From Sphingomonadaceae bacterium (GTDB lineage: Bacteria > Pseudomonadota > Alphaproteobacteria > Sphingomonadales > Sphingomonadaceae): a stretch of DNA of 64,000 nucleotides. How positions within the stretch are numbered: position 1 is the stretch's first letter; each line of letters starts with the position of its first letter. This document shows, piece after piece, positions 20,149-62,891 of the stretch. The notes below the pieces were generated by a model, which had not been told where the DNA came from, did not search any database, and saw nothing but the letters and a program-made list of their open reading frames with translations. The stretch is from positions 39,405-103,404 of the forward strand of contig CANGJB010000004.1 of the NCBI GenBank assembly GCA_947453945.1, read 5' to 3'. A program made the position numbers and the translations under genes.

Positions 20149-20164
20149 CCTCGGAAACTACCCA
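20149..20164 (-). promoter_or_regulatory. Stress-regulon element upstream of csbD
   Basis: Reads TGGGTAGTTTCCGAGG on the minus strand, identical to the ompA copy. It overlaps the stop codon of the 51-residue ORF behind sodB and faces csbD. Confidence 0.7.
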
Positions 20165-20313
20165 GTCCGGTCCGGTTCGGCCGGATGCGGTTCGAGCGGC
20201 GCGGCGGGATCTGCCGTGAGGCGCGGGGCGGGCGCGCCGCCTTCGTTGTCCCAGCGGGCAAGCGCCGCCCGCGCCTGTTTGTCTGCCGCAGGGCGCGCGC
20301 GAAGGCGCCGCAT
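20158..20313 (-). CDS. 51-residue protein coupled to sodB
   Basis: This ORF is too short for the track. Its ATG overlaps the sodB stop by one base (TGATG), which is a usual coupling arrangement. It encodes a basic, proline-rich protein with RAALARWDNEGGAPAP in the middle. I recall similar short ARWDNEGG proteins in sphingomonads, but cannot check this. It has no signal peptide or membrane segment. Function is unknown. Confidence 0.5.
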   Translation of the reverse strand: MRRLRARPAADKQARAALARWDNEGGAPAPRLTADPAAPLEPHPAEPDRTG

Positions 20314-20924
20314 CAGCCCTGATCCCCGCGCGACAGCCCTTCGCTATCGAGGTTCATGGCGACGAAGGTCCAGTTGACGAGGTGGGCCATGACCGCGGCG
20401 ATGTAATCGCGCCGGGCATCGCGGCGATCCACGTAATATGCGTGCTCCCACAGATCGAGCGTGAACAGCGGGACCATCCCTTCGTGGAGCGCTGGTGTAT
20501 CGCCGTCATGCAGCGCGGTGATGCGCAGCGCCGAACCATCGAGCACCAGCCAGGCCCAGCCGCTGCCAAAATGCGCGGTGGCCACAGCGGAGAATGCCTC
20601 GATCAGACCTGCGTGCGAGCCGAACCCCTGTTCGATGAGCATCGCCAGCTGGTCGGTTGGCGGGCGCTCATCCGGGGACAGGCATTGCCAGAAGAAGCTG
20701 TGGTTCCAGACCTGCCCGGCGATCTGGCACAAGGGACCCGGCGGCGCGGCCCGGATCACACCAAGCAGCGAGTGGCTGCCGAGGCCCGCTTCCTCCGCCA
20801 GCGCATTGGCACGATCGACATAGGCGCGGTGGTGCCGGCCATGGTGATAATCCAGCGTTTCGGCCGAGATGTGCGGTGCGAGCGCATCGCGGTCATAAGG
20901 TAGTGGCGGCAATGTGAAGGCCAT
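20313..20924 (-). CDS. sodB: Fe/Mn superoxide dismutase
   Basis: The enzyme turns superoxide into hydrogen peroxide and oxygen in the cytoplasm. It has 203 residues from ATG 20924; the track start at 21032 runs through the promoter. Metal ligands are the His of SAETLDYHHGRHH, the His of QVWNHSFFW, and the Asp and His of LDLWEHAYYVD. FGSGWAWLV is present in place of the more usual form. I cannot decide between iron and manganese. A stress-regulon element lies about 90 bp upstream, divergent from the ompA copy. Confidence 0.93.
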   Translation of the reverse strand: MAFTLPPLPYDRDALAPHISAETLDYHHGRHHRAYVDRANALAEEAGLGSHSLLGVIRAAPPGPLCQIAGQVWNHSFFWQCLSPDERPPTDQLAMLIEQGFGSHAGLIEAFSAVATAHFGSGWAWLVLDGSALRITALHDGDTPALHEGMVPLFTLDLWEHAYYVDRRDARRDYIAAVMAHLVNWTFVAMNLDSEGLSRGDQG

Positions 20925-21009
20925 TGGGGGGTATCCTGTGATCGGCTGGCCCGCGAATGCGTGCCCAGCCTTGCCCGCAGGATTAAGGTCCGAGGCTGCC
21001 CCGGCGCAG

Positions 21010-21025
21010 CCTCGGAATGTACCCA
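21010..21025 (-). promoter_or_regulatory. Stress-regulon element upstream of sodB
   Basis: Reads TGGGTACATTCCGAGG on the minus strand, 86 bp upstream of the sodB ATG. With the plus-strand copy at 21037 it forms a divergent pair whose flanks extend the match to CAGCCTCGGAA and TTCCGAGGCTG. Confidence 0.65.
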
Positions 21026-21036
21026 GCCGCACGGCA

Positions 21037-21052
21037 TGGGTAGTTTCCGAGG
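21037..21052 (+). promoter_or_regulatory. Stress-regulon element, plus strand, toward ompA
   Basis: Reads TGGGTAGTTTCCGAGG. It lies 264 bp upstream of the OmpA-like gene, further than the other copies, with a terminator-like hairpin in between. Confidence 0.7.
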
Positions 21053-21057
21053 CTGTG

Positions 21058-21222
21058 CCCGTTCCAGCAAGCGGCCTAGTTCAAATCTCGATGCCGGCGG
21101 TGGCCCTTACCCCCCAAGGTTTAAAGGGTCCGCTCGCAGCGGTGAGGTTTTGCGACCCGACCTTAATTCCGCAGCATCACACCTTGGGCCGACGGTTGCT
21201 TGCAACCGTCGGCTTGCTTTTC
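21058..21222 (+). ncRNA. Candidate small RNA between sodB and ompA
   Basis: The region starts after a promoter-like stress element and ends in a strong hairpin with a T-rich tail (21188-21221). It has no open reading frame of note. It carries a TTACCCCCCAAGG stretch that could pair with ribosome-binding sites. An RNA of about 150 nt is inferred; a leader of the ompA messenger with a built-in attenuator is the main alternative. Confidence 0.35.
21188..21221 (+). terminator. Rho-independent terminator upstream of ompA
   Basis: GCCGACGGTTG and CAACCGTCGGC pair perfectly over 11 bp around CTTG and are followed by TTGCTTTT. It lies 95 bp before the ompA ATG, where no upstream gene on this strand needs terminating. 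Confidence 0.7.
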
Positions 21223-21315
21223 CCGATGTGCGGCGATCCGGGCCAGTTCTTCCCCCATCCCCCTCTTACCCCGTGGCCGCATTGTGCGAAGCCACCAAGA
21301 ATGAACGGATATCTC

Positions 21316-22440
21316 ATGAGGAAAATCATCGTCAGCTTGTTGCTGGCTTCCAGTGCGCTGGGCGCAAGTGCCCACGCGAATGAAACCGGCCCCTACATCA
21401 CCATCGAGGGCGGCGCAGTCAAACAGGAGCACGTCGACATCTCCACCGCGGTCGGCCCGAACTATACCGACCGGTTCAAGACCGGCTGGGAAGTCGGCGG
21501 CGCGTTGGGTTATGATCTTGGAAAGATCCGGTTCGAGGCAGAAGGCTTCTATTCCCGCTCGATGCTGCGCGATCAGGACCGCCCGCTCGGCGCGCCGACG
21601 CCCAACGGTAGCTTCACGAACGCAAACGGTCTCTCCGGCCGGCTGAGCACATATGCCGCGATGGCCAACGTGCTGATCGGCCTTGGCCACTGGGGCGGAA
21701 TCAAGGCTTATGCAGGTGCCGGCGGCGGCTATGCCAGCAGCAAGCTGATTGAAAGCCTGCCTTCGGCTGTCAGGGTTCAGGACCGGGCCAGTGGCCTTGC
21801 CTGGCAGGCCCTGGCCGGTGTGACCGTGCCAATCAGCCACAATGTCGATCTGGGTGTGAAGTATCGCTACTTCCGTCCCGACGGCGCGGATCGCTTCGTC
21901 GCCGATGATGGCAGTTCGCGGGAAGCCCGGCTGCGCTCGCATGCCTTGCTGGCAACGCTGACCTTCAACTTTGGCGGAAAGGCCGCCGAGCCTGAGCCAG
22001 AACCAGCCCAGTTGCCACCTCCCCCGCCGCCCGCACCGATGCCCGCTCCTCCCCCGCCGCCGCCTGCGCCCCTTCCTTATGTCGAAGCTTGCAACAAGGG
22101 CCCCTTCATCGTGTTCTTCGATTGGGACAGGGCCGACGTTTCGCCGGAAGCAGCCAGCGTTCTCGACAACGCGGTGCAGGCTTACGGGAACTGCGGCAAT
22201 ATCGGCATCATGCTGGCCGGCCATACCGACAGCTCGGGCTCGCCGCGCTACAACCTGGGTCTTTCGTCACGGCGCGATAGTGCGGTTCAGAGCTATCTGA
22301 CCGGGCATGGCGTTTCCGCCGGGGCGATTTCCAGCCAGGCCTTTGGCGAAACCAACCAGAGGGTGCCCACCGCCGACGGTGTGCGCGAAGTGCAGAACCG
22401 CCGCGTGGAGATCAGCTACGGCCCGGGTTCGGGTTCCTGA
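21316..22440 (+). CDS. OmpA-family outer membrane porin
   Basis: The protein is 374 residues from ATG 21316, with the signal peptide MRKIIVSLLLASSALGASAHA; ATG 21301 is the in-frame alternative. The N-terminal half is an eight-stranded OmpA-type barrel with alternating strands. A proline-rich linker (PEPEPAQLPPPPPPAP) follows. The C-terminal domain is peptidoglycan-binding, with FIVFFDWDRADVSPEAASVL, AGHTDSSGSPRYNLGLSSRR and the closing NRRVEISYG. It would anchor the outer membrane to the cell wall. A stress element and a terminator-like hairpin lie in its long upstream region, so its expression may be attenuated. Confidence 0.9.
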   Translation: MRKIIVSLLLASSALGASAHANETGPYITIEGGAVKQEHVDISTAVGPNYTDRFKTGWEVGGALGYDLGKIRFEAEGFYSRSMLRDQDRPLGAPTPNGSFTNANGLSGRLSTYAAMANVLIGLGHWGGIKAYAGAGGGYASSKLIESLPSAVRVQDRASGLAWQALAGVTVPISHNVDLGVKYRYFRPDGADRFVADDGSSREARLRSHALLATLTFNFGGKAAEPEPEPAQLPPPPPPAPMPAPPPPPPAPLPYVEACNKGPFIVFFDWDRADVSPEAASVLDNAVQAYGNCGNIGIMLAGHTDSSGSPRYNLGLSSRRDSAVQSYLTGHGVSAGAISSQAFGETNQRVPTADGVREVQNRRVEISYGPGSGS

Positions 22441-22567
22441 TCACAGGCTGACAGATCGGGTCCATGGGGACCACAGGAAATGGGGTCGGCACGTTGCCGG
22501 CCCCATTGCCGTTTCAGGATGGCCGCAGAACGAGAGCCGGCTTTGGCCTGACGCGCAGGACAGCCGA

Positions 22568-25500
22568 TCAGGCCTCGATCATCAGAACCTTGCGGGCGAG
22601 TTCGGGAAGCGAGCGCACCTCCATCCGGTGCATGATCTCGGCCCGGTGATTTTCGACCGTGCGCTGGCTGATGCCCAGATCTGCCGCGATGTTCTTGCTG
22701 GGGTGCCCGGCAAGGACCATGTCCATCACTTCCTTCTGCCGCGCGGTGAGCGCGCCGTAGCACAGAGCTGCCTCGGCCTTCGCGACATCGGCGATGTTGG
22801 TTCCCAGCGATTGTTCGGTCGCGCGGTCGATGCTGCCCAGCAATGCTTCGCGCCCCACCGGCTTGGTGATGAAATCGCAGGCGCCCCCGCGCATGGCCGC
22901 CACGGCCAGCCCGGTATCGTCATCGCCGGTGATCAGGATGACCGGCAAGTGATCACCACGCGCACGCAGCTTGCCCAGCAGATCAATGCCGCTGAGGCCG
23001 GGCAGATGGGCATCGACCAGCAGGCATCCCGGCCGGCCTGCGCGATAGGCGGCTAGAAAGTCCTCCGCAGAGCCGAAGTCTTCCACATCGCGGCCATGCG
23101 AGACGAGGAGTTCGCGGATCGCGGCAAGAACCTGCGGTTCATCATCCACCACATAGATCACCGGCTGCGCCTGCGGATCACCACCAGAGAGCACGGTCGC
23201 AGCCGCCCCTAGCGCGGGCGGACAAAGCCGTTCCACCTCGCGCAGCAGCACAGCGGGAACGACCGGCTTCTTGAGATGAACGCAATCGGCGTCCACGATG
23301 ATTGACTGTGCCGCGGTGGAGATATCGCCGGTGAGGACAATTGCCGGCAGCGGTCGCTCCAGCTGGGCGCGCAGGGCCATCAGCAAATCCACCCCGCTTC
23401 GGCCCGAAGGCAGATTGTAGTCCGTCAGCAGCAGATCCGGCCTGATAGCGCCCGCCGCAATCAGCCGCAGCGCCTCGGCGCCATCGGGTGCGCAGCTGAC
23501 GATATGGCCCTTTTCACGCAGCAGAAGCGCGATGAGATCAAGCAAATCGGGATCATCTTCGACCACCATGATCACCGAAGGCCGCGCGGCAGGTTCGGGT
23601 TCGGGTTCGGGTTCGGGCGCAGGATCCGGCCCGAGCGCGGGTGGAAGGCGCGGCGCATCAACGCGGCGCGGCACGGTGATCGCAAACAGCGAACCGCGCC
23701 CGGGCACAGAGCGGACATCGACCGGATGACGCAGAAGCCGGCCCAGCCGCCACACGATCGAAAGCCCCAGCCCGCTTTCGCGCGCGGGATTATCCACTTG
23801 ATGGAATTCCTCGAAGATCCGGTCGAGTTGATCGGCCTCGATGCCGATCCCGGTATCCCAAACCTCGATCCGAAGATCGCTGCCGCGCCGCCGACAGCCC
23901 AGCAGGATCCGGCCCGTGCGCGTGTACTTCACCGCATTGCCAAGGAGGTTGCGGATCATCTGTTCCAGCAGGCGCGGATCGCTTTCGACCCACGCCGCAC
24001 TGGGCATGAACCGCAGCGAGAGATCGCGCGCTTCCGCCAGGGCGAGGAATTCGCCGTGGAGCCGTTCCAGCACATCGGCCACCGGAAACCGCTCGATCTG
24101 CGGGCGGACCGCACCGGCCTCGATCTGGCTGATGTTGAGCAGGACATCGAGCATCCCCGAAAGCGCGCCCAGCGTCTTGTCGAAACGGAGCATGAGTTCG
24201 CCGGCCCGATCGCCCGAGACATTGGGCGCGAGAAAATCCTTAAGCAGCGCGAGAGCCTGAAGCGGCTGGCGCAGATCATGGCTGGCCGCGGCGAGGAACC
24301 GCGACTTGGCGGCATTGGCGCGTTCGGCCTCCAGCTTGGCCTCTTCGAGGGCAGAGGTCGTGCGCTTGCGATCGGTGATATCGGCAAAGGTGATCACCAC
24401 GCCCTCGATCAGGCTATCGTGCGCGCGGTAGGGAAAGATGCGGCGGACAAACCAGGTATCGTCCGGCGCCCTGACCTCGCGCTCGATGGGTGCCTCGTTG
24501 CCCAGCACGCGCTGCGCATCGCCCAGCAACTGGGGATCATCGGCAATGGGCCTGAGATCGGCCAGCGGCCGGCCGATATCGCCTGCAATCACGTTGTAGA
24601 GCGGACTGATCGCCGGCGTGAAGAAGCGGATCTTGAGCGCCGCATCGAGGAACATCGTGCCGACATTGGTGCTGAACAGCACGTTCTGAAGATCGTCCGA
24701 GGCCAGGCGCTGGCGGTCGAGCGTTTCCTGCAGCTGGCTGTTGAGCGCGGTCAGTTCCTCGTTGAGTGACTGGAGTTCCTCTTTCGAGGTGAGCAGTTCC
24801 TCGTTGGTGGACTGGAACTCCTCGTTGATCGACAAGGCCTCTTCGTTGATCGCCTTCTGCTCCTGATTGGCGATTTCCCGGTCGTGGATCGAGGCCTGCA
24901 ATTCGGCCTGCGTTTCAAGGAGCTCGCGCTCCAGTTCGCCCACCCGTTCGGTCTCTTCAGGGGCGAGGCCGTCTGCTGCTGCGCCGCGGCCCGCCGCTTC
25001 TTCGGCGAAGCAGACCAGCAGCAGTTCTTCCGCCGCATCGGCGATGTGTTCAACGGTAATGCGGAAGTGGGCCGGTTCTCCATCAATCGTCAGCCGCGCA
25101 AGCCCGCCATCGACATGGGGCGTATCCGGGCCAACCCGGCTGATCGCCAGACGCAGCCGGGTGCGCAGCGCGGGCGAGGCCATGGCGAGCAGATCCTGCG
25201 TGGGATAGCCCGGCATGATCCGCAGGAAGCGGTGCGTCGGCCCCATCGAGAACAGGCAATCGTGGTGGCGGTTGATCAGCACCGCGGCCGGCGCATGGCT
25301 GGCCAGAACCGCGCGCTCGCATATCTCGGCCAGACTGCGCCGCACCGTGGGCACATCGCGCCCCACTGTGGCCAGCTGCGGCAGCTTCCCATCGAAGTTG
25401 AACGGAAATCCGGCCTCACCCGGCCGGGTTTTGGCGCCGTGGCGGTAGAAGCATTCGGCCGGCGCCATGAGCTCGAACCGGCCATCTGCCTTGCCGATCG

Positions 25501-26902
25501 TTTCAGCCATCCCCAGCATCAGCATGCCGCCTTCGCGCAAGGCGAAGTGGAACAGCGCGATGACCCGGGCCTGCGCGGCGCTATCGAGATAGATGAGGAG
25601 ATTGCGGCAGGCGATCAGGTCCAGCCGCGAAAACGGCGGGTCGGTGAGCACATCCTGCACCGAGAACACGACATGCCCGCGCAGCGCTGCCACCACACGG
25701 TAGCCGTTCTCTTGCCAGGTGAAGTACCGCTCCAGCCGCTCGGGCGAAATGGCGGCAGCGACATCGTGCGAGTAAAGCCCTTCGCGTGCGGCAGCGACAG
25801 CATCGGCATCGAGATCGGACGCGAAGATCTGCAGCTTCACATCGCGATTGAGGCGCGCAAGCACGTCCTGGCAGACCATCGCGATGGAATAGGCCTCTTC
25901 GCCGGTGCTGCATCCCGCCACCCAGATGCGCAAGGCCTGCCCGTCGGTCAGCCGTTCGACCAGTTCGGGCAGGACGAGAGTCTCGAGATTTTCGAAGACC
26001 TTGGGATCGCGGAAGAAAGCGGTCACGTTGATGAGCAGATCGCTCGCCAGCAAAGCGCACTCCGCAGGATCGCCGCGCAGCCGTTCGGCATAAGCCGCCA
26101 TGTCGCCAGTGGTCATCGCCAGCAAGGCCATGCGCCGCGCGATGCGACGGGATATCGTGCCGGGCTTGTACTGGCTGAAATCCTGGCCCGGTGTGTGCTT
26201 CAGCGCCGCGATGATCGCGGCCAGCCCCTCGGCCCCATCAAGCGGGGCGACCGGGCCTGCCACGAAGCCGGGGCGCGTGACGCGCGCGGCAAAGGCCGTG
26301 ATCGCATCGGGCATGGCGGCAATCGGCAGGGCCGCATCGGCCAGCCCGGTATCGAGCGCGGCTTGCGGCATCTCGGGATGCTCAGCCTCGGTGATCGCCT
26401 GGACAAGGATCAGCCCGCCCGCCGCATGGAGCGCGGCCAAACCGCCACTGCCATCGCCGCCGTTGCCGGACAGGACAACCGCCGCGGTTTGCTTGCCGCA
26501 CGAGGCTGCAAGCGAGCGGATCAGCCCATCGAACGGCAGGCGCGCGCCGTGGCCCACTTCGGGCGCGGAAAGCCGCAAGGTGCCCGCACTGACGGAAAGA
26601 TACCGGCCGGGAGGGATGACATAAACATGGTCCGCCGCCAGCGGGCAGCCATGCGCGGCTTCGGCCACGGGCATGGCGGTGTGATCGCCCAGCAAGCTGA
26701 CCATCATACTTTCGTGGTTCGGATCGAGATGCTGGACAACAATGAAGGCGCAGCCGGTGGCGGCCGGCAGCGCATCGAACAGACGCGACGCTGCCTCCAG
26801 CCCTCCAGCCGACGCGCCGATGGCAATGATCGGAAGCACTTGTCTTGGCGGCAAGTCTTTCCGCTGCGATGCGCCGATGGCTTCGCGCAGTGTGCTTACC
26901 AC
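22568..26902 (-). CDS. CheB-CheR-PAS hybrid histidine kinase with two receivers and a LuxR-type HTH
   Basis: This 1444-residue protein joins, in order: CheB methylesterase (22-207, catalytic Ser in IIAIGASAGG, His in VVQHLDPNH, Asp in SGNGGDG); CheR methyltransferase (244-484); a coiled coil (654-734, repeated NEE/KEE heptads); PAS (740-827); HisKA (867-940, acceptor His in ASHDLRQP); HATPase (990-1067, GNAVKYTRTG and GLGLSIVWRLG); a PEPEPEPEP linker; receiver 1 (1108-1220, VVEDDPD); receiver 2 (1245-1360, VVDDEPQ); and a FixJ/LuxR-type HTH (1382-1444, LTARQKEVMDMVLAG). All catalytic residues seem present, so it could sense, phosphorylate itself and bind DNA in one chain. The start is GTG 26902. 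No chemotaxis genes are nearby, so the CheB/CheR part probably serves sensing rather than swimming. Confidence 0.9.
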   Translation of the reverse strand: MVSTLREAIGASQRKDLPPRQVLPIIAIGASAGGLEAASRLFDALPAATGCAFIVVQHLDPNHESMMVSLLGDHTAMPVAEAAHGCPLAADHVYVIPPGRYLSVSAGTLRLSAPEVGHGARLPFDGLIRSLAASCGKQTAAVVLSGNGGDGSGGLAALHAAGGLILVQAITEAEHPEMPQAALDTGLADAALPIAAMPDAITAFAARVTRPGFVAGPVAPLDGAEGLAAIIAALKHTPGQDFSQYKPGTISRRIARRMALLAMTTGDMAAYAERLRGDPAECALLASDLLINVTAFFRDPKVFENLETLVLPELVERLTDGQALRIWVAGCSTGEEAYSIAMVCQDVLARLNRDVKLQIFASDLDADAVAAAREGLYSHDVAAAISPERLERYFTWQENGYRVVAALRGHVVFSVQDVLTDPPFSRLDLIACRNLLIYLDSAAQARVIALFHFALREGGMLMLGMAETIGKADGRFELMAPAECFYRHGAKTRPGEAGFPFNFDGKLPQLATVGRDVPTVRRSLAEICERAVLASHAPAAVLINRHHDCLFSMGPTHRFLRIMPGYPTQDLLAMASPALRTRLRLAISRVGPDTPHVDGGLARLTIDGEPAHFRITVEHIADAAEELLLVCFAEEAAGRGAAADGLAPEETERVGELERELLETQAELQASIHDREIANQEQKAINEEALSINEEFQSTNEELLTSKEELQSLNEELTALNSQLQETLDRQRLASDDLQNVLFSTNVGTMFLDAALKIRFFTPAISPLYNVIAGDIGRPLADLRPIADDPQLLGDAQRVLGNEAPIEREVRAPDDTWFVRRIFPYRAHDSLIEGVVITFADITDRKRTTSALEEAKLEAERANAAKSRFLAAASHDLRQPLQALALLKDFLAPNVSGDRAGELMLRFDKTLGALSGMLDVLLNISQIEAGAVRPQIERFPVADVLERLHGEFLALAEARDLSLRFMPSAAWVESDPRLLEQMIRNLLGNAVKYTRTGRILLGCRRRGSDLRIEVWDTGIGIEADQLDRIFEEFHQVDNPARESGLGLSIVWRLGRLLRHPVDVRSVPGRGSLFAITVPRRVDAPRLPPALGPDPAPEPEPEPEPAARPSVIMVVEDDPDLLDLIALLLREKGHIVSCAPDGAEALRLIAAGAIRPDLLLTDYNLPSGRSGVDLLMALRAQLERPLPAIVLTGDISTAAQSIIVDADCVHLKKPVVPAVLLREVERLCPPALGAAATVLSGGDPQAQPVIYVVDDEPQVLAAIRELLVSHGRDVEDFGSAEDFLAAYRAGRPGCLLVDAHLPGLSGIDLLGKLRARGDHLPVILITGDDDTGLAVAAMRGGACDFITKPVGREALLGSIDRATEQSLGTNIADVAKAEAALCYGALTARQKEVMDMVLAGHPSKNIAADLGISQRTVENHRAEIMHRMEVRSLPELARKVLMIEA

Positions 26903-27083
26903 CGGGCGGCCGAGGCGTAAAACCTCGTGGGCCGGAGGGCTGTGGGCCGCAGGGCCGTTTGCCAGAGGGGCTTGCGCCAGAGGGCCGTGCGATGGAGTCG
27001 CTGTGTCATGTCATGCCCCTTGTGATAGGTATGACTACCATAGTCGCAGGCGAACACCCCACTCCGAATGGTGTCATGGTCAT

Positions 27084-27116
27084 GCGGCCTCCGCACGCGC
27101 CGCGTGCGGAGGCCGC
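27084..27116. repeat. 15-bp perfect hairpin
   Basis: GCGGCCTCCGCACGC and GCGTGCGGAGGCCGC pair exactly around GCC. It lies between the Thivi_2564 gene and the sensor kinase start, both on the minus strand. Without a T tract, it may be a processing site or a partial terminator. Confidence 0.6.
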
Positions 27117-27139
27117 TGGAAATCGCATCGGCGCATTTG

Positions 27140-27328
27140 CTAGCCGAGACGGACGCCATCCAGCGAGGACAGCAGGCCGAACACCCGGAGCAGCCACAGC
27201 ACCACCGCAATCACGACCACGCCGTTGAGGATGGCTTTGATCTTGCCGTCCATCGGCAGATAGGTGTTGATCAGCCAGAGAATGACCCCGACCACGACCA
27301 GAACGAGAATGAGATTGATCAGCGGCAT
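27140..27328 (-). CDS. Thivi_2564 family small membrane protein
   Basis: The protein is 62 residues with two hydrophobic helices: INLILVLVVVGVILWLIN, then VVVIAVVLWLLRVF. Between them is the family motif TYLPMDGKIKAILN. The family is widespread in proteobacteria and of unknown function, and its members sit in the inner membrane. AGGAGA precedes the ATG. The gene may be read with the sensor kinase, although a 15-bp hairpin and 237 bases separate them. Confidence 0.85.
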   Translation of the reverse strand: MPLINLILVLVVVGVILWLINTYLPMDGKIKAILNGVVVIAVVLWLLRVFGLLSSLDGVRLG

Positions 27329-27385
27329 GATGGTGTTCTCCTAGGCGGGCCTCAGCGTTCGAGAGCCCGTGGTGGATGGGAAGAC

Positions 27386-27423
27386 CGCGCCGGAAATTCT
27401 GCCGAAGCAGGAATTCCGGCGCG
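27386..27423 (-). terminator. Hairpin with UUCG loop after the first SH3 protein gene
   Basis: On the minus strand the arms CGCGCCGGAATTCCTGC and GCAGAATTTCCGGCGCG pair over 17 positions with two mismatches around a TTCG loop, followed by GTCTTCCC. It lies just downstream of the 27480-28160 gene. A near copy follows the paralogous gene at 28200-28236. Confidence 0.6.
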
Positions 27424-27479
27424 ATCCCGGACGCGCCGATTCGATCTGGCGGGAGGGGGTGTCAGATCGGACTGGCGCA

Positions 27480-28160
27480 TCACTTCGAGGTCTGGGATTT
27501 TTGCCTGAGAACGCCGCTATCCTTCGCGGCGTCCTGCGCAGAGCTCGTCATCATCGGGCCAGACAGCCTGGGCTTGCTGTCTTTGCCCTGCAGATTCTCG
27601 AACGCGTGACTTGGAAAGGCATAGGGCGCCATCGGGACGTGCGCTTGATCGCCGCCGCCAAGTCCTGCCTGTTCCTGATCGGCGACGCCCGGCACCGACC
27701 AGCCCTGACTTTGCCGACCATCGCTGCGCAGGTACCGCTTACCCCATTCCGGGCGATGGTCCCGTTCATAGCGGTTCTGCCAGAACTGGCGCTGGTCATA
27801 GAACGCCCGGCTGCGATAGTTGCTGGCCCAGTACGGCTCGAACAGGAACGACGTGACCGCGATGCCCCTGCCGGCCGCAATCCCGCGGCGGTGCCCCGTC
27901 TCGCTGACGCGCAGAGCCGTTGCTGCAATCCAGCCGCGATTGGAGCGGTAGGTGACATCGCACCAGCTCCAATCGCGCAGGCAGCCGTGAAGCTGCAGCG
28001 CAGCGCCGTCTCTGACGGAGCGAACGCTCGGAAAATCGCGAAGCGGACCGGCGTGGAGCTCAACCGCGTAGGCTGTATAGCCCAGCCGTGTCTGCACAGC
28101 GGAAGCCGCAGAGGGCATTGCGGCGGCGGCAAGCACCGCGCCGATCATAGTGAAGCGCAT
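27480..28160 (-). CDS. Exported SH3-like domain protein (paralogue 1)
   Basis: The protein is 226 residues from ATG 28160 (AAGGA about 10 nt upstream; ATG 28181 is the alternative). A signal peptide (MRFTMIGAVLAAAAMPSAASA) is followed by a bacterial SH3 domain (residues 25-80) with HGCLRDWSWCDVTYRSNRGW and two cysteines that could form a disulfide. The middle has FEPYWASNYRSRAFYDQR, and the tail is low-complexity. Such SH3 domains bind cell-wall peptides. It is a tandem paralogue of the 28295-28990 gene and shares a 64-bp identical DNA block with it. Confidence 0.82.
   Translation of the reverse strand: MRFTMIGAVLAAAAMPSAASAVQTRLGYTAYAVELHAGPLRDFPSVRSVRDGAALQLHGCLRDWSWCDVTYRSNRGWIAATALRVSETGHRRGIAAGRGIAVTSFLFEPYWASNYRSRAFYDQRQFWQNRYERDHRPEWGKRYLRSDGRQSQGWSVPGVADQEQAGLGGGDQAHVPMAPYAFPSHAFENLQGKDSKPRLSGPMMTSSAQDAAKDSGVLRQKSQTSK
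27926..27989. repeat. 64-bp block identical to 28756-28819
   Basis: This block is identical, base for base, to the same part of the paralogous gene, while the surrounding coding DNA has diverged strongly. It encodes the SH3 core. Confidence 0.9.
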
Positions 28161-28199
28161 GCAGATTGCGTCCTTCGTCATGACGATGGGCTGCAAGAC

Positions 28200-28236
28200 C
28201 GCGCCGGAACTCTGCCAGGGCAAGAATTCCGGCGCG
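28200..28236 (-). terminator. Hairpin after the second SH3 protein gene
   Basis: On the minus strand CGCGCCGGAATTCTTG pairs with the matching GAGTTCCGGCGCG and is followed by GTCTTGC. It is a near copy of the hairpin at 27386-27423, so each SH3 gene carries the same 3' structure. Confidence 0.55.
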
Positions 28237-28294
28237 GCCCCGCGTGTCCGGTCCGATAGTGCGGGGGGGAGGGCAAATCGCACCGGAGAGCTCT

Positions 28295-28990
28295 TCAGTT
28301 GTGCGGGGGACGAGCAACATTGCCATGGGCGTTGTGTTCGCCTCCGCCCGGCGTTGCTGGCGCATGACCCCGGATCTGGGGGGCCTTGCGGATGATCTGC
28401 TGCTGCACCTGAGCTGGCCGGTTCGGCCAGGCCTGCTGCGGAACTAGCTGCGCATTGCTGCGCGGCCTTTCACGTTGACGGTCCGCACGCGGATGATCAT
28501 CGCCGGGGCGGTTGTAGCTTGGCCGGTCGTAGCCTGGCCGGTTGTCGCCGCGCCTGTCCTGATCCCGCACGCCCCATTCCGGGCGATACCCTGTCTGATA
28601 CTGCGTCTGCCAGCGATCACGATTGCCGTAGAAGCTGCGGCCACGATAGTAGTTGTCCCAGTAGGACCCGAACGAGAACGAGATCACGCCGATGCCCATT
28701 TCGGCGGCAAGGTTACGGCGGCGCCCAGCGTAGCTTATGCGCAGGGCATTGCCCACAATCCAGCCGCGATTGGAGCGGTAGGTGACATCGCACCAGCTCC
28801 AATCGCGCAGGCAGCCGTGCAAACTGACCCTGACGCCGCGGCTGACATAGCGCACGCCTGGATAATCGCGTTGCGGGCCTGCATAAAGCCGGGCCGCGCT
28901 CACCGTATAGGCGCTCGTGGTTTGCGCCGCTGCGGGTGCCAGCGGCACTGCAGCGGCGACGAGCGCCGCCATGGTCATGATAGAGCGCAT
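28295..28990 (-). CDS. Exported SH3-like domain protein (paralogue 2)
   Basis: The protein is 231 residues from ATG 28990, with AAGGAG eight bases upstream. The signal peptide is MRSIMTMAALVAAAVPLAPAAAQ, and the SH3 domain (residues 25-80) has RLYAGPQRDYPGVRYV and HGCLRDWSWCDVTYRSNRGW. The segment SFGSYWDNYYRGRSFYGNRD is followed by a repetitive RPGYDRPSYNRPGDDHPR tail rich in Arg, Pro and Tyr. It is most likely periplasmic or surface-attached. It lies upstream of its paralogue on the same strand, which suggests a tandem duplication. Confidence 0.82.
   Translation of the reverse strand: MRSIMTMAALVAAAVPLAPAAAQTTSAYTVSAARLYAGPQRDYPGVRYVSRGVRVSLHGCLRDWSWCDVTYRSNRGWIVGNALRISYAGRRRNLAAEMGIGVISFSFGSYWDNYYRGRSFYGNRDRWQTQYQTGYRPEWGVRDQDRRGDNRPGYDRPSYNRPGDDHPRADRQRERPRSNAQLVPQQAWPNRPAQVQQQIIRKAPQIRGHAPATPGGGEHNAHGNVARPPHN
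28756..28819. repeat. 64-bp block identical to 27926-27989
   Basis: This is the second copy of the identical coding block described at 27926. The two lie 830 bp apart in the same orientation. Confidence 0.9.
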
Positions 28991-29046
28991 GAAGTTGGCT
29001 CCTTTTTCTGATGATCGGAACGGTGCGGAGGGCACGGGATGATGCC

Positions 29047-29457
29047 TCAGCGGCAGCGGGCAGACTGCCGACCGCGATCGATCTGGCGGCCGGCCACACC
29101 GCCGACAACGCCGCCGAGCACCGTGCCGAGTGTCTTCGATCCGCCCGGGGCAATCACGTTGCCAAGGACGCCTCCGGTTATCGCGCCGACCACGAGCCCG
29201 GTGGTCCCGTCTGACCGGCGGCAATAGTAGCGCCCGTCGTTGCCTCGATAGAGCCGCTCGGAATTGCTCATGCGCCGTTCGCGGTAGCGGGCGGTATCCT
29301 CGCGGTAGTAGCGCTCAGCCTGATAATCGCCGTAGCCGGGATCGGGGCGGTTGTAGTCGTAGTTTCTCCACTGCGAATTCACGGATTGGCCGCCGCCATA
29401 ATCGGCGCAGCCCGCCAGGAGACCGGTGGCGGCAAGGCCCAGAACAAATAGGCGCAT
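29047..29457 (-). CDS. Glycine-zipper outer membrane lipoprotein
   Basis: The protein is 136 residues from ATG 29457, with AAGGAAA upstream. It opens with a lipoprotein signal (MRLFVLGLAATGLLAGC), so the mature protein begins at the lipidated Cys. A Tyr/Arg/Asp-rich middle (RPDPGYGDYQAERYYRED) is followed by a two-helix glycine zipper (GLVVGAITGGVLGNVI and GTVLGGVVGGVAGRQID) of the 17-kDa antigen type. It probably sits in the outer membrane. A stress-regulon element lies about 115 bp upstream. Confidence 0.85.
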   Translation of the reverse strand: MRLFVLGLAATGLLAGCADYGGGQSVNSQWRNYDYNRPDPGYGDYQAERYYREDTARYRERRMSNSERLYRGNDGRYYCRRSDGTTGLVVGAITGGVLGNVIAPGGSKTLGTVLGGVVGGVAGRQIDRGRQSARCR

Positions 29458-29572
29458 TGGATGGTTTCCTTGTAAGGCGAAGCTGGATCGGGCGGCCAAA
29501 CTGAGCGGAACGCATCAGGAGGTCGCCGCATCGGGCCACATAGACCTAGGCCCCGCCAAGGATGCGCGACAG

Positions 29573-29588
29573 GATCGGAAAATACCCA
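29573..29588 (-). promoter_or_regulatory. Stress-regulon element upstream of the glycine-zipper lipoprotein
   Basis: Reads TGGGTATTTTCCGATC on the minus strand, 116 bp before the ATG. It is divergent from the copy at 29640. Confidence 0.65.
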
Positions 29589-29639
29589 GTCGGCTCCGCC
29601 CGGCCCGGATGCCCGGAAAGCGGGGCCCTGCGCGCTGTC

Positions 29640-29655
29640 AGCGTAGATTCCGAGG
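29640..29655 (+). promoter_or_regulatory. Stress-regulon element upstream of the GT4/GH130 operon
   Basis: Reads AGCGTAGATTCCGAGG, 64 bp before the start of the glycosyltransferase gene. It is a weaker match in its first three bases. Confidence 0.5.
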
Positions 29656-29718
29656 GCAGACGCAGCGCTCGCAAGAGGCCACCTGAGCCTTGCCTCCCAC
29701 AAAAAGGAAACCGGCACC

Positions 29719-54361: not shown

Positions 54362-55086
54362 TGCCCTCTGCGCCCCAGATCACCGTGGCGAGCTATAACA
54401 TCCACAAGGCCATCGGCACGGATGGACGTTATGAACCCGAGCGCATTCTGGCCGTTCTGGCGGAGATCGGTGCCGACGTGGTCCTGCTGCAGGAGGCCGA
54501 CAAGCGCTTCGGCCCGCGCACCACGGTGCTGCCTTTCGCCATGATCGCAGCGCGCACCGGCTACCGGCCCGTGAGCATCGGTGCGCACCCGCATGGCCTT
54601 GGCTGGCATGGCAATGCGGTGCTCGTCTCCGAGAGGGTGACGATCACTGCGGCTCTTCCGCTGGTGCTGCCCTCGCTCGAGCCGCGCGGGGCGATCCTTG
54701 TGGAAACCCTCGTCGAGGGCCGCGCGCTGCGCCTGGGCGGGATGCACCTTGATCTGACCGGCCTGCGGCGGCGGCGGCAAGCCCGCGCGATCATCACGCA
54801 AATGGCAGCGCGGCCCGATCCGATGCCAACCGTGCTGATGGGCGATCTCAACGAATGGCGCCGGCACAGCGGCTGCCTGATCGATTTTGACCGGACTTAT
54901 GCCATCGCCCCGACCGAGCCGAGCTTTCCCGCGGGCAGGCCGCTTGCACGGCTGGACCGGATCATGGCCGGCCCCGGTATCGAGATCGCGGGCTCCGGCA
55001 CGCACCGCACGGCCCTTTCACGGATCGCATCGGATCATCTGCCGGTATGGGCGGCACTGCAGTTCAGCCCGGACGAGCGGGAGTGA
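54361..55086 (+). CDS. Endonuclease/exonuclease/phosphatase (EEP) family hydrolase
   Basis: The protein is 241 residues from ATG 54361, which overlaps the previous stop. EEP motifs are ASYNIHKAIG, LLQEAD, GMHLDLTGLRRRRQAR, MGDLNEWR and RIASDHLPVWA, giving the Asn, Glu and Asp-His metal residues. No signal peptide is visible. It may act on a phospholipid-derived or nucleotide phosphodiester; coupling to cardiolipin synthase favours a lipid role. Confidence 0.85.
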   Translation: MPSAPQITVASYNIHKAIGTDGRYEPERILAVLAEIGADVVLLQEADKRFGPRTTVLPFAMIAARTGYRPVSIGAHPHGLGWHGNAVLVSERVTITAALPLVLPSLEPRGAILVETLVEGRALRLGGMHLDLTGLRRRRQARAIITQMAARPDPMPTVLMGDLNEWRRHSGCLIDFDRTYAIAPTEPSFPAGRPLARLDRIMAGPGIEIAGSGTHRTALSRIASDHLPVWAALQFSPDERE

Positions 55087-55099
55087 GTAGTTTCCGAGG
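55084..55099 (+). promoter_or_regulatory. Stress-regulon element upstream of the cupin gene
   Basis: Reads TGAGTAGTTTCCGAGG. It overlaps the stop codon of the EEP gene and lies 117 bp before the cupin ATG. Confidence 0.65.
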
Positions 55100-55215
55100 C
55101 TGCTTCACAAGCCCTTGGCGCGCTTAGCTATCCGTATATGGCGCAGCCCGCAGGACCTCGTCGATGCCATCTTCAAGATGAATCGCTGAACGGCCGCCCA
55201 ACAACGGAGTTGAAG

Positions 55216-55712: not shown

Positions 55713-55728
55713 TAGGTAGATGCCGATT
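55713..55728 (+). promoter_or_regulatory. Stress-regulon element upstream of the HlyD/ABC operon
   Basis: Reads TAGGTAGATGCCGATT, a weaker match, 58 bp before the HlyD ATG. Confidence 0.45.
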
Positions 55729-55786
55729 CTGTCAGGCCTGTGCCGATCACGCCTAGACCCGGCAGCGTGGCCCAGATGACGCAACC

Positions 55787-57064
55787 ATGATGACCGGCGA
55801 AACCGGATTGTCGGCGCCGGAACCCGAGGCAGGCGTGCCAGCGACGAGGCCGATCCGCGCGTTCCTTGTTGCCTACAAATGGTCGATTATCATGGGCCTG
55901 GCCGCGCTTGGCGCAACGCTCTGGGCCACGTTTGCCTACCTGCGCGGCACTGAGGTCCGATTGGAAACCGTGCGCCGGGGCGATCTGGTAGAAACCGTGG
56001 TGGCCAGTGGTCACGTCGAATCCCGGTTCCGGGTGGCAATTGCCAGCCAGATGACCGGGACTGTCGCGCAAGTGCCCGTGCAGGAAGGCGAGACAGTGCG
56101 CGCCGGGCAGACCCTGCTCGTGCTGGGCTCGGGCGAACTCGCCAATGCCTCCACGCAGGCGCGCGGCGTGGTCGCACAGGCTGAAGCGCAGATGCGCCGC
56201 ATGCGCGAGCTTTCGCTGCCCGCTGCGCGTGAGGCCCAGCGCTCGGCTGCGGCCAGCCTGCGCGGCATGCAAGCGATCTATGACCGGACCGCGACGCTGA
56301 TGCGCAAAGGCTTTCTAACCCGCGCCCAATTCGACGAAGCGCAGAAGAATCTGGATGTGGCGCGGGCCCAACTGGCGACTGCATCTGCTGAGGTTAGCGG
56401 CGCGCAGGCTGGCGGCAGCGACTATGCCGTGGCGCAGTCGCAGCTCGGGCAGGCTAGCGCAGGGTATGCAGCCGCCACATCGCGCCTCGCCTACACGCGG
56501 ATTGCGGCGCCGAGGGACGGCGTGCTGATTGGCCGCAGCGTCGAACAGGGCACGGTGGTTACACCGGGCCAGGTGCTGATGGTGCTGGCGCCTGCAGGGG
56601 GTGTTCAGCTCGTCATGCAGATCGACGAGCGCAATCTGGGCAAGCTCGCCATCGGTCAGCCGGCGCTGGCATCGGCCGATGCCTATCCCGGGCAGCACTT
56701 TGCCGCGACCATCGCCTTCATCAACCCTGGCATCGATATCGCCCGCGCTTCTGCCGCGGTGAAGCTCACGGTCCCGAACCCGCCGGCCTATCTGCGGCAG
56801 GACATGACCGTTTCGGTTGATATCGAGACCGCACGGAGGAGGACGGCGCTGGTGCTCCCGATTGCGGCAGTTCACGATGTGCTGACTGCAAGTCCCTGGG
56901 TGCTGGTGGTGCAAGGCGGCCGCGCTGTGCGCCGCGCGGTGACGCTCGGGCTGGTAGGCAATCTGCAGGTCCAGATCCTCACCGGGCTGGCGGCGGGTGA
57001 TGCCGTGATCCCGGCCACTTCGGCAATTGCGGCGGGCGCGCGGGTCCACGCGGCGGCGCCATGA
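55787..57064 (+). CDS. HlyD/MacA-type periplasmic adaptor
   Basis: The protein is 425 residues with one N-terminal membrane segment ([20 protein letters not shown]). The lipoyl-like half has [21 protein letters not shown], and a helical hairpin ([24 protein letters not shown]) runs to residue 210. The second lipoyl half has [18 protein letters not shown], followed by a beta barrel. It would link an inner membrane ABC transporter to the periplasm. The next gene overlaps by ATGA. Confidence 0.87.
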
Positions 57065-59558: not shown

Positions 59559-60011
59559 TCAGGCTTCGAGCAGCGATGGCGGGCCATCGCTCGCAATCAG
59601 CAGACTGCAGGGCAGGCTTTCCAGCAATTGTGCGCCGACCGAGCCTTCGAACCAGCGCGCCAAAACCCCCTTGTAGCTATGCCCGATCACGGCAAGATCA
59701 GCTTTTATCTCTTTGATGTAGCCTATGATTTCGGCTGTGGGCCCACCATCGCGGATGCAGATGTTCGTGGGGATTCCGGCATGGGCAAAGACGCGGGCGG
59801 TATCTTCTAGTTTGTCCAGAAGCAGGCGGCGCTCCGCTTCGATGAGTTCGTCCGGCACGTAAGCGGGATCAAGCAGCAGCCCGCCCGATGTGACGACGAT
59901 CCCCAGCAGATGCAGTTCGCCCCGGCACGCCCGTGCCATTTCAGCACCCCGGCGCAAGGCTGCTTCGCTCGCACCGCTGCTTTCATAGGCCACCACGATT
60001 TTCTGGAACAT
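59559..60011 (-). CDS. Universal stress protein (UspA family)
   Basis: The protein is 150 residues from ATG 60011, with AAGGA upstream. It has the Usp fold: KIVVAYESSGASEAALRRGA, VIGHSYKGVLARWFEGSVG and the final SLPCSLLIA. The ATP-binding glycine motif (G-2x-G-9x-G) is only partly present. A stress-regulon element lies about 80 bp upstream, after a run of GCAG-type repeats in the leader. Confidence 0.87.
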   Translation of the reverse strand: MFQKIVVAYESSGASEAALRRGAEMARACRGELHLLGIVVTSGGLLLDPAYVPDELIEAERRLLLDKLEDTARVFAHAGIPTNICIRDGGPTAEIIGYIKEIKADLAVIGHSYKGVLARWFEGSVGAQLLESLPCSLLIASDGPPSLLEA

Positions 60012-60054: not shown

Positions 60055-60089
60055 ACTTGACCACTAACTGCCAGGCGAGCGCGCGGAAG

Positions 60090-60105: not shown

Positions 60106-60132
60106 ATTCGCTCTCAGGCCCGTTCTGGCGCC

Positions 60133-60148
60133 TGGGTAGTTCCCGATG
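60133..60148 (+). promoter_or_regulatory. Stress-regulon element upstream of the HicA-baeRF gene
   Basis: Reads TGGGTAGTTCCCGATG, 120 bp before the ATG at 60268. Confidence 0.65.
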
Positions 60149-60267
60149 GTTTTGCCGTGCGTTTCTGGGGCGCAAACCGGCACGGGAAGATTGCCTAGTC
60201 GGCGCGTCATCGCTCGTCCGGCCAAGATGCGCCTGATCCCACCTTCTGCAACGGAGATCGCTACGCC

Positions 60268-60969
60268 ATGACCAGTACCCACCTCAACGGCCATCACCGC
60301 AAGACCCTTGCGCGCATCTTTGCACATCCGGCGGGGCACAACGTGGAATGGCACGATGTGCTCTCGCTTCTGGGGCATGTCGGCACCGTGACAGACAGGC
60401 ACGGCGGCGGCCATGACGTGACAATCGCCGGTGAGACCATCAGGCTTGGCGCACAGAATGGCCACGACATGACACCAGGCGACATGCGTGATCTGCGCAG
60501 CTTTCTGGCCAGATCGGGTTTCACCGATGCCGGGATGGCGGATGGGGAACCGGACGCGCCCGCAGCGCACACCAACTGCACCGTGTTGATCGATCACCAT
60601 GAGGCCCGCCTGTTCGGTCTGGACGCCAGCGCCGCTCCTTCGCAACCGCGCGTGCTGAAGCCCGAAGATGCCGATGGCGCTATCCGCCGGGTGGAACACA
60701 AGCAGGGGCAGGACGATCACGATGGCGGACACGGACTGGAAGAAGACGCCTGGTACGAGCGCATCGCGGCCGAACTGCAGCCGGCACAACGCATCGTGGT
60801 GCTGAGCGATGGCAAGGGCCGCAGCAATGCCGGATCCTATCTCACCGCCTATCTGAAGCGCCGCCATGCCGCCCTTGCGGCGCGCGTCATCGCCGTCCAG
60901 CGTGTCGACATCGGGCACTTGTCCGATGGCGAAGTCGCCGCGATGGGCCGAGACCTGCTGGCGGCGTGA
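60268..60969 (+). CDS. HicA-like plus baeRF-like (translational machinery) fusion protein
   Basis: The protein is 233 residues from ATG 60268, with GGAGA upstream. The N-terminal part (ARIFAHPAGHNVEWHDVLSL, then TVTDRHGGGHDVTIAG) resembles the HicA-like double-stranded-RNA-binding fold seen in many short hypothetical proteins. From residue 105 it matches bacterial eRF1-like baeRF proteins annotated as translational machinery protein: CTVLIDHHEARLFGLD, then IVVLSDGKGRSNAGSYLTAYL. A role in ribosome stress is possible. The stress element lies 120 bp upstream. Confidence 0.7.
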   Translation: MTSTHLNGHHRKTLARIFAHPAGHNVEWHDVLSLLGHVGTVTDRHGGGHDVTIAGETIRLGAQNGHDMTPGDMRDLRSFLARSGFTDAGMADGEPDAPAAHTNCTVLIDHHEARLFGLDASAAPSQPRVLKPEDADGAIRRVEHKQGQDDHDGGHGLEEDAWYERIAAELQPAQRIVVLSDGKGRSNAGSYLTAYLKRRHAALAARVIAVQRVDIGHLSDGEVAAMGRDLLAA

Positions 60970-61046
60970 GCGTGGGCTTGGCTTGAGCCGGGGTACCAAG
61001 GCGACGAACGCCTTGGCGCACACCGCATCACCCCGGCATCCCCGCC

Positions 61047-61856
61047 TTACGCGGCAGGTGCGCCCGCCATCAGCGCGTAGGGATCGATATTGCGCGAACG
61101 CCAGATCCGGTGGCAGCGGTTGTAAAGCACGGTCTCGCCGATGCCGAGGCGTGCGCGAACATCTGACACCCGCATCGCGAGCAGTTCCAGCACCGGCTCC
61201 TCGATGAGGTGGCGGCAGGTGTGGCCAAGGCGCTGGCCTTCGCGGATCGCGCGCAGCACTGGCGCGCCCCAGCCGCCGCCGGTCAGGATGGTCAGCCCCA
61301 CCGGATAGGCGATGAACAGATTGCCGAGCGATGGCTCCTGCCCATAGGAAAACGCCAGCACGCAGGCCTCGCCCAGCGCATCGCGGCCATAGCCGGTCAG
61401 CACGTGAAGCAGATCGTGCGTGTCGCGCGTGCGGTCCTGCGTCCACTCGGCCAGATCATCGTGGCGCAGGCCCGGCTCGGCGAACTTGTCGTATTCCTCG
61501 ACCAGACCCCTGGCCGAGAGGTTCTCGCACTCCATGAAATCGCAATAGGCATGGGCGAGCGAGCCCAGCGGCATGCGCCGCAGCCGTTCATGATCATCGA
61601 GGATCGCGGGCAAATAGGGCTCCTCGGCGCGGATGCGACGCAAGCGCTCGTCGTTGGCGAAACGTTCGGCGCAATCGCGCAGCCCCGTCCACGGCAGGGC
61701 ATCGAACACGCGGAACACCGCAGCGGTATCGTCCTTGTCCCGTGCGACATCGGCAAAGTGGCGCAGCGCGGCAATCGGGCGCTGGCGCGGCGCGCGCCGG
61801 GCGGCGCTGTAGACGGGCAGATCGGGGCGCAGGCCAATGTAATCGGCAGGGATCAT
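61047..61856 (-). CDS. coq4: COQ4-family ubiquinone biosynthesis protein
   Basis: The protein is 269 residues from ATG 61856, with GGATGAAG upstream; the track start at 61934 is early. It has the family zinc motif HDxxHx(11)E in RDTHDLLHVLTGYGRDALGE. COQ4 helps assemble or catalyse ubiquinone ring modification, in bacteria as a stand-alone protein. It is divergent from the TetR gene, with a 117-bp gap, and may be under its control. Confidence 0.87.
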   Translation of the reverse strand: MIPADYIGLRPDLPVYSAARRAPRQRPIAALRHFADVARDKDDTAAVFRVFDALPWTGLRDCAERFANDERLRRIRAEEPYLPAILDDHERLRRMPLGSLAHAYCDFMECENLSARGLVEEYDKFAEPGLRHDDLAEWTQDRTRDTHDLLHVLTGYGRDALGEACVLAFSYGQEPSLGNLFIAYPVGLTILTGGGWGAPVLRAIREGQRLGHTCRHLIEEPVLELLAMRVSDVRARLGIGETVLYNRCHRIWRSRNIDPYALMAGAPAA

Positions 61857-61973
61857 CGCTTCATCCTTACTCGGCGCACCGCCTTGCCGGATGCATGCTC
61901 CGGCAGGCAGCATTGCTTCAATCACGAGCCGCATTATGATGGATTACTCGCAAAAACTGGACTCGCATTCGGC

Positions 61974-62597
61974 ATGACCCGGCAAACCGCACCAACGCCT
62001 CGGAAAATGCCCAAACAGGCGCGCGCGCAGCACACGGTTGGCGTGATCCTTGAAGCGGCTGCTCGCATTCTTGAGGAACAGGGACTCGAGGCGGCCAACA
62101 CCAATGCAATTGCCGCGCGGGCCGGGATCAGCGTGGGCTCGCTCTATCAGTACTTCGGCAGCAAGGACGCCATTCTGGCAGAGCTCGCCCGCAGCACCGA
62201 GCTGGCCACGGCCGACGAACTGGCCAAGGCCGGCGAGGCTGTGGCCGGCCTGCCGTTTGAGCAGCAGGCCCGAACGCTGATCCATGTCGCCTTCGGCATC
62301 CTCTATGCCCGGCCGCAGCTGGGGCGCATCCTTTCCTACCACGAGGCGCGGATGCGCAAGGATGAGGCGTTCGCTTCCGCCGGGGAGCAGATGGTGGAGA
62401 CGATCACCCGCCTGCTTGAGCGCAACCGCGCCGATCATGCCCGCCACGATTGCGTGACCGCGGCGCGCGATGTGCTGGCGATCGTGGAGGGGATCGCACT
62501 TGCGGCGAACCGGCGCGGCGAAAGCGATTTTGCGCTGCTAGAAGAACGGGTGGCGACCGCCGTGCTGGGCTATCTTGTCCAACCGGGGCCTGCCTGA
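61974..62597 (+). CDS. TetR family transcriptional regulator
   Basis: The protein is 207 residues from ATG 61974 (62007 is the alternative); the track start at 61209 runs through the opposite gene. The HTH has GVILEAAARILEEQGLEAAN and AIAARAGISVGSLYQYFGSK, a classical TetR_N domain. The C-terminal ligand domain is of the general type. Divergent position makes coq4 its likely target. Confidence 0.87.
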   Translation: MTRQTAPTPRKMPKQARAQHTVGVILEAAARILEEQGLEAANTNAIAARAGISVGSLYQYFGSKDAILAELARSTELATADELAKAGEAVAGLPFEQQARTLIHVAFGILYARPQLGRILSYHEARMRKDEAFASAGEQMVETITRLLERNRADHARHDCVTAARDVLAIVEGIALAANRRGESDFALLEERVATAVLGYLVQPGPA

Positions 62598-62891
62598 TTG
62601 CCAGCCGCATTGGTAGTTTCCGATCCCCCTATTCCCGCAAGCACGGGCATTAAATCAGTTGCTGGCTCCCCACATACTGCGTAGAAAACTCAGGCCCTGA
62701 AAAAGCGCTTCGTCCGAAAACACGAACGGTTTAAGCGCCGAATACTCCGCCCCAATTGCCTTACGCCGATTTCGCTTTAACGCTTGAGCGAACACGCCCA
62801 CCAAGCTGGCGTGCTCGACACGGTCGGTGCCCGCCAGAAACCACGCGATGCTTGCCCTAGAGCTTCGGCTTGCACAAAATCTGGAGGTGTC
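62598..62891. other. Intergenic region before the PAS gene
   Basis: About 290 bases. The stress element at 62610 opens it. On the minus strand a frame ending at 62655 encodes a protein-like tail ([20 protein letters not shown], ending LRSMWGASN) with ordinary codon use, but it has no start before it runs into the PAS gene. It may be a gene remnant. GGAGGTGTC precedes the PAS gene ATG. Confidence 0.4.
62610..62625 (+). promoter_or_regulatory. Stress-regulon element upstream of the PAS gene
   Basis: Reads TTGGTAGTTTCCGATC. It lies 267 bp before the PAS ATG, further away than most copies. Confidence 0.6.

Follow-up and report, generated by a model that had tools for sequence, protein, structure and literature searches.

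A FixJ-type promoter box and a putative one-protein phosphorelay regulator in an envelope and stress gene cluster of a Sphingomonadaceae bacterium

Introduction

FixJ-type regulators, FixJ boxes and CheB-CheR kinases are already known. A comparative-genomics paper gave the FixJ consensus from systematic evolution of ligands by exponential enrichment (SELEX) as GTAGTTTCCC and the FixJ site of S. meliloti fixK as TAAGTAATTTCCCTTA (PMC4999443). In the EcfG/PhyR general stress response, the EcfG promoter is of the GGAAC-N-GTT type (PMC6599016). The present study concerns a repeated, oriented DNA element in a stretch of 64,000 nucleotides (nt) from a Sphingomonadaceae bacterium (assembly GCA_947453945.1, contig CANGJB010000004.1, positions 39,405 to 103,404), which is called the window below. 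We consider it highly probable that this element is a FixJ-type activator site, and that its putative binder is the FixJ-type output of a one-protein phosphorelay encoded at 22568-26902, which would activate a cluster of envelope and stress genes.

In the open-access literature (subscription papers were outside the scope), neither this box nor a regulon owned by such a fusion protein was found described, and the examined occurrences of the exact motif strings there were all in unrelated subjects. The regulator-box circuit is apparently undescribed before.

Results

The box and its promoters

A first-pass annotation of the window had described ten oriented copies of a 16-base-pair (bp) element as the mark of a regulon, and this proposal is strongly supported. 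All of the positions and strands were right, the three divergent pairs (21010/21037, 29573/29640 and 60090/60133) are real, and one copy does overlap a stop codon. In the window, 12 matches to the 16-bp consensus were found at three mismatches or fewer, while shuffled sequences gave a mean of 1.81 and a maximum of 5, and none of the 100 shuffles reached 12. The weaker copies have two (29640) or three (55713) mismatches. The suspicion that some weaker copies had escaped the eye was also justified, as an unlisted candidate with two mismatches lies at 61998 on the minus strand. The boxes, given at their full length, and the genes they face are as follows.

20146..20164, minus strand: FixJ-type box of csbD (gene 19888-20070, minus strand), start codon 78 nt downstream
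21007..21025, minus strand: FixJ-type box of sodB (Fe/Mn superoxide dismutase), ATG at 20924, minus strand
21037..21055, plus strand: FixJ-type box of an ompA-like gene, ATG at about 21301/21316, plus strand; divergent from the sodB box
29570..29588, minus strand: FixJ-type box of a glycine-zipper lipoprotein gene, ATG at 29457, minus strand
29640..29658, plus strand: weaker FixJ-type box of the GT4/GH130 genes, ATG at 29824, plus strand; model E-value 0.003, clear -10-like TA absent
55084..55102, plus strand: FixJ-type box of a cupin gene, ATG at 55216, plus strand; overlaps the TGA stop of the upstream nuclease gene
55713..55731, plus strand: FixJ-type box of an hlyD/MacB-type ABC operon, ATG at 55787, plus strand; the orthologous hlyD is boxed in locus L241
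60087..60105, minus strand: FixJ-type box of usp-DUF3775, ATG at 60011, minus strand
60133..60151, plus strand: FixJ-type box of an unnamed gene of 233 amino acids, gene at 60268, plus strand; orthologues boxed in L079 and L075
62610..62628, plus strand: FixJ-type box of a PAS-domain gene remnant, gene at 62784, plus strand
61995..62013, minus strand: possible eleventh box, weaker, facing a Coq4-like gene (61047-61934, minus strand); -10-like TA absent at the expected distance

The distance from box to start codon is 58-119 nt for seven genes and longer for GT4 (about 168 nt), ompA (about 250-263 nt) and PAS (more than 150 nt), so the earlier count of eight genes in ten starting 55-120 bp downstream was slightly optimistic.

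The annotation had also proposed a whole-genome scan with a weight matrix, and the placement was found to be clustered. The genome searched comprises 3.26 Mb in 111 contigs and is 86% complete. It holds 15 matches at two mismatches or fewer, 11 of them inside the window, and the reversed pattern gave none. From twelve sites a model of 62 columns was built, and at an E-value below 0.01 it recovered those twelve and nothing else, ten in the window and one each on contigs 23 and 75. The binomial probability of finding 10 of the 12 strong sites within 42 kb of the 3.26 Mb is near 1e-17, which describes clustering and not discovery, because the model was built from those same sites.

The element is present as described but longer than 16 bp. 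The flank alignment of the sites gives TGNGTAGWTTCCGAnsCTG, a conserved block of 19 bp, followed by a T-A step about 21-24 bases on, and the consensus over a larger set of 148 sites from other species is TGRGTAGWTTCCGAnsCTGnC. The box thus continues with nsCTGnC, and a -10-like TAnnnT starts 40 bases after its first T. At offset 38-42 a TA is present in 101 of the 148 sites, while control windows of the same width gave 11-24, and there is an additional T at offset 45. If TAnnnT is the -10 element, the box likely spans about -52 to -34 of a sigma-70-like promoter, and the 3' CTGnC of the block, which is weak, lies at -35 with the normal 17-bp spacing to the -10-like element. Read from the sequence, this layout is that of an activator-dependent sigma-70 promoter rather than that of an extracytoplasmic function (ECF) promoter. 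A consensus scan of window positions 20000-30000 found no sigma-70 consensus promoters, which is expected because the promoters would be activator-dependent and the genome is GC-rich.

The first-pass annotation had left the choice between a sigma-factor promoter and an activator site, and it is the activator site that stood. An alternative, ECF-type sigma promoter, with the 16-mer as -35 and CTAR as -10, would account for copies oriented towards genes and for the -10-like element at constant distance. However, the 19-bp block far exceeds an ECF -35 in length. About 26 bp separate TTCCGA from TAnnnT, so that the block core lacks the 16-19 bp spacing of a sigma promoter to the -10, and it is CTGnC that has the normal spacing. 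In addition, the core equals that of the FixJ sites, and the presence of the box tracks a FixJ-type helix-turn-helix (HTH) domain and not a sigma gene (see below). The EcfG motif is also absent at the boxes. The annotation was correct that the element is not the EcfG signal, since the only strict match to GGAAC-N16/17-CGTT in the window is at 51363, far from any box. We regard a sigma promoter as very improbable.

The comparison with FixJ sites is closer. The box core GTAGWTTCCG has 9 of 10 bases in common with the SELEX consensus, and the box aligns base for base with most of the fixK site. A FixJ-box promoter, that is, a GTAGTTTCC core near -50 to -35 and a sigma-70-type -10, was found here, with CCG in place of CCC as the exception. 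A FixJ-type operator could also serve repression, as repressors, too, may occupy the -35 zone, which the box overlaps. Against this, a position near the -35 zone with a weak -35 is typical of class-II activation in the FixJ/NarL family, and the sigma-70 consensus promoters are absent from 20000-30000. It is hardly probable that the box is a repressor site, and we prefer activation.

The candidate regulator

A regulator gene inside the cluster had been overlooked by the first-pass annotation. It has the sodB/ompA boxes on one side and the glycine-zipper box on the other, and the gene row behind the latter leads towards it.

22568..26902, minus strand: candidate regulator of 1,444 amino acids, CheB-CheR-PAS-HisKA-HATPase-REC-REC-GerE (FixJ-type) in one frame (Pfam)
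22589..22750, minus strand: FixJ/LuxR-type HTH (GerE) of the regulator, residues 1385-1438
22829..23158, minus strand: REC2 of the regulator, adjoining the HTH, phospho-acceptor D1297
24113..24310, minus strand: HisKA dimerisation/phospho-acceptor domain of the regulator, H875

The last 206 residues match the structures 1yio (5e-37), which we take to be StyR, and 5xso of FixJ (8e-32) over REC and HTH. As in a FixJ-family response regulator, the Pfam domains Response_reg and GerE are both present, and D1297 is kept in 36 of 37 aligned proteins. The regulator scores 197.5 bits against the FixJ equivalog PRK09390 (NCBIfam). Because this falls short of the curated cut-off of 255 bits, its output is, on sequence grounds, a FixJ relative and not FixJ itself.

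In the same alignment, 36-37 of the 37 proteins keep the kinase H as well as the D residue of each receiver, and 36 keep the CheB triad S31, H58 and D150. The CheR domain has an E-value of 2e-52. By their triad and CheR fold, the CheB and CheR parts agree with chemotaxis-type methylation enzymes. The most conserved stretch is the recognition-helix region ISQRTVENHRA, with 0.90 identity to the window protein compared with 0.40-0.73 for whole domains. Between CheR and PAS, four glutamate pairs spaced by seven (E694/695, 701/702, 708/709 and 715/716) lie in a coiled coil. They are invariant or nearly so in the 37 proteins and resemble receptor methylation sites; by this analogy we speculate that they are candidate self-methylation sites.

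The box and the fused HTH in other genomes

The association of the box with the HTH is read directly from the sequences of 80 named loci encoding relatives, which give the sharpest contrast. Across Alphaproteobacteria, 146 boxes were counted in 41 loci with an HTH-fused kinase, and none in their reversed sequence. In 33 loci whose related kinases have no such HTH, 2 boxes were counted, compared with 3 in the reversed control. One of the 41 loci (L175) overlaps the genomes on which the matrix was trained, and it supplies only two sites.

Whole genomes gave a similar picture. Among 61 relatives, the full-length fusion is present in the window genome, G003, G026 and G042, and the first search model found clustered boxes in the fusion genomes, on the contigs of the kinase, together with three sites in the fragmentary G017. 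An E-value search of 401 family genomes detected boxes in 11, and eight of the 11 complete fusions are among those 11 genomes (Fisher p 1.7e-12, ignoring shared ancestry); a ninth family fusion genome with boxes, G308, was added by the weight matrix. In 385 genomes of the class, the fusion occurs in 16, boxes in 12 and both in 8 (Fisher p 5e-10, again regardless of shared ancestry).

Loss of the HTH offers a natural experiment. The glycine-zipper lipoprotein gene is boxed in 6 of 6 distinct genomes where it stands beside HTH-fused close relatives of the window kinase, and in 0 of 3 where the kinase is HTH-less. Near-duplicate records (L171 and L225, L174 and L229, L175 and contig 33 of G042) were counted once. 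The comparison of orthologous promoters, which the annotation had called for, showed the ompA box in the near relatives L145-L147 and the glycine-zipper box in six other genomes. In these promoters the box and CTA are kept and the flanks drift.

A second natural experiment is the exchange of the sensor. Four motif genomes without the CheB-CheR (CheBR) fusion encode, in the stretch that holds several boxes, a PAS-PAS-HK-REC-REC-GerE protein (G516; HK, histidine kinase), a PAS-HK-REC-GerE protein (G522), a stand-alone REC-GerE (G091) or a GerE remnant (G716), and the boxes are often immediately beside the FixJ-type gene. In G063, a stand-alone REC-GerE lies beside boxes on another contig than its CheBR fusion. 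The SQRTVENHRA helix of the fusion recurs in the box-side regulators of both G063 and G716. Because the boxes stay beside FixJ-type domains where the CheBR sensor is replaced, the box, as judged from these loci, follows the DNA-binding module and not the CheBR sensor.

It may be asked whether a different, stand-alone FixJ/StyR-type regulator binds the box, the CheBR fusion being merely co-inherited with the cluster. The genome does have other FixJ-like regulators, e.g., on contig 37 with 32% identity, and in part of the motif genomes (G091 and G152) the regulators near the boxes are all of the stand-alone type. On the other hand, many box-less genomes have stand-alone FixJ-like regulators, the loss of the fused HTH goes along with the loss of the box, and the box-side regulators of G063 and G716 share the helix of the fusion. 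This alternative appears unlikely to us, though less so than a sigma promoter or a repressor site. The stand-alone FixJ-like regulators of this genome were rejected as owners of the box, with their lower similarity and a different HTH and recognition helix.

Several observations weigh against the fused regulator as the binder of a FixJ-type box. The invariant CCG is a steady deviation from the CCC of FixJ sites, and no box immediately precedes the window regulator gene, so that autoregulation would need read-through from 29573. Among fusion genomes, a box near the kinase was not seen in G349, none was present within the 1.5-kb flanks of the kinase in G772 and G700, and the more diverged G423 holds only degenerate sites of 17.3 and 13.1 bits, the latter at its glycine-zipper gene. 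Conversely, the motif genomes G796, G152 (the HTH of a nearby regulator is divergent) and G017 (75% complete) lack a convincing cognate in the sequence examined. Locus L173 of Caballeronia sordidicola has boxes and an HTH-less CheBR kinase, and a FixJ-type gene is absent from the stretch examined; horizontal transfer, with the regulator elsewhere, is possible. The Fisher tests of co-occurrence also take no account of shared ancestry.

In this betaproteobacterium, the boxes next to the HTH-less kinase precede a PRC-barrel gene and a cyclopropane-fatty-acid-synthase-like gene.

Targets beyond the window

The first gene after the box was picked by a simple coding score, and some singletons are wrong. 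Among 116 such genes, single-domain receivers (13), OmpA (8), BON (7), glycine zipper (5) and LTXXQ (4) were the most frequent, followed by Dps/ferritin, EcfG/PhyR-like sigma, PRC barrel and YflT with 3 each, and SPFH, 6PGD, Crp and CsbD with 2 each. The recurrent targets are envelope and stress protein families, from which a stress role of the regulon is plausible.

In L149, L159 and L168 (e.g., L168:15467-16105, plus strand), the gene of an EcfG/PhyR-like sigma factor is preceded by a box at a distance of 52-113 nt, which suggests that in some lineages this regulon can act as an input to the general stress response. A boxed REC-only gene of about 120-165 amino acids occurs in L158, L160, L164, L165, L166, L176, L203 and others, and it is frequently oriented divergently to the gene of the fusion kinase. 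When these proteins were checked with a simple pattern, the FATGY-type motif known from SdrG-like receivers was not found. Boxes can be very dense, with ten in 20 kb of G306 contig 1 (1-20000, L236) and 13 strong ones over G779.

Other genes of the window

The interval from the glycine-zipper gene to the regulator gene contains a tandem pair of genes for similar SH3-like secreted proteins (27480-28160 and 28295-28990, both minus strand), which apparently arose by duplication, and related genes are found at the same place in L145-L147. The boxed 233-amino-acid protein (60268-60969, plus strand) had been labelled HicA-baeRF, for which Pfam and NCBIfam give no support; it has no family above the cut-off in either, and its orthologues in G003 and G026 are boxed too. 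The PAS target near the contig end (62784-63584, plus strand) does contain a PAS_4 domain, but the frame runs into a transposase-type integrase core. As both share one reading frame, an insertion element has probably disrupted the gene.

Discussion

From these data we infer physical binding, activation and not repression, the direction of phosphotransfer, the signal input and a stress role in the following way. A signal would enter via the CheB-CheR-PAS part and switch the HisKA/HATPase kinase, and phosphate would pass through REC1/REC2. A dimer of the phosphorylated REC2 with the GerE HTH would bind the box, which lies at about -52 to -34 of a promoter whose own -35 is weak, and the bound HTH would recruit RNA polymerase with sigma-70 in an arrangement resembling class II. 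The outcome would be co-induction of an accessory cluster with csbD, sodB, ompA, the glycine-zipper lipoprotein, usp, the cupin, HlyD/ABC and GT4/GH130.

On this proposal, an unexplained repeat becomes a regulator-operator pair with a precise promoter code, and the pair ranges over Sphingomonadales, Acetobacteraceae, Rhodospirillales, Rhizobiales and Caulobacterales. EcfG/PhyR is the usual frame for describing how these bacteria regulate stress responses, and a FixJ-box regulon that is widespread and has similar target types would add a second input. The one-protein architecture would connect chemotaxis-type methylation chemistry to transcription. We tentatively suggest, as a possibility that is somewhat less than even, that Alphaproteobacteria have a second, EcfG-independent stress circuit, in which methylation enzymes, a kinase, two receivers and the FixJ-type HTH are combined in one polypeptide. 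This protein may tune its sensitivity itself, through CheR/CheB methylation of the glutamate pairs, and in some lineages it would feed forward into an EcfG-type sigma and a single-domain receiver.

Compared with known systems, the NahK/ErcS-type hybrid kinases (NCBIfam near_NosP_CTERM) align over the HisKA-HATPase-REC1 segment with 345 bits, but this is below the 400-bit family cut-off, and CheB, CheR and the C-terminal REC-GerE are extra here. StyR is the closest solved full-length regulator to the C-terminus (1yio); it is a stand-alone protein of styrene catabolism, whereas the receiver-HTH is here fused behind CheB-CheR-HK. The EcfG/PhyR general stress response has similar target types (csbD, usp, Dps, BON and OmpA) but another promoter type and another regulator class, and its motif does not accompany the window boxes. 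FixL/FixJ of Rhizobiales and Caulobacterales shares the FixJ-family REC-GerE output, the identical core GTAGTTTCC and the position of the box near -50 to -35 (PMC4999443). The present locus is not a FixLJ system, as the sensor is fused and fixK is absent among the targets in the window. FixL is a separate sensor, whereas here a CheB-CheR-PAS kinase is fused to its own regulator; the box has an invariant CCGA and a 3' CTG; and FixJ targets fixK/nifA, while the targets here are stress and envelope genes.

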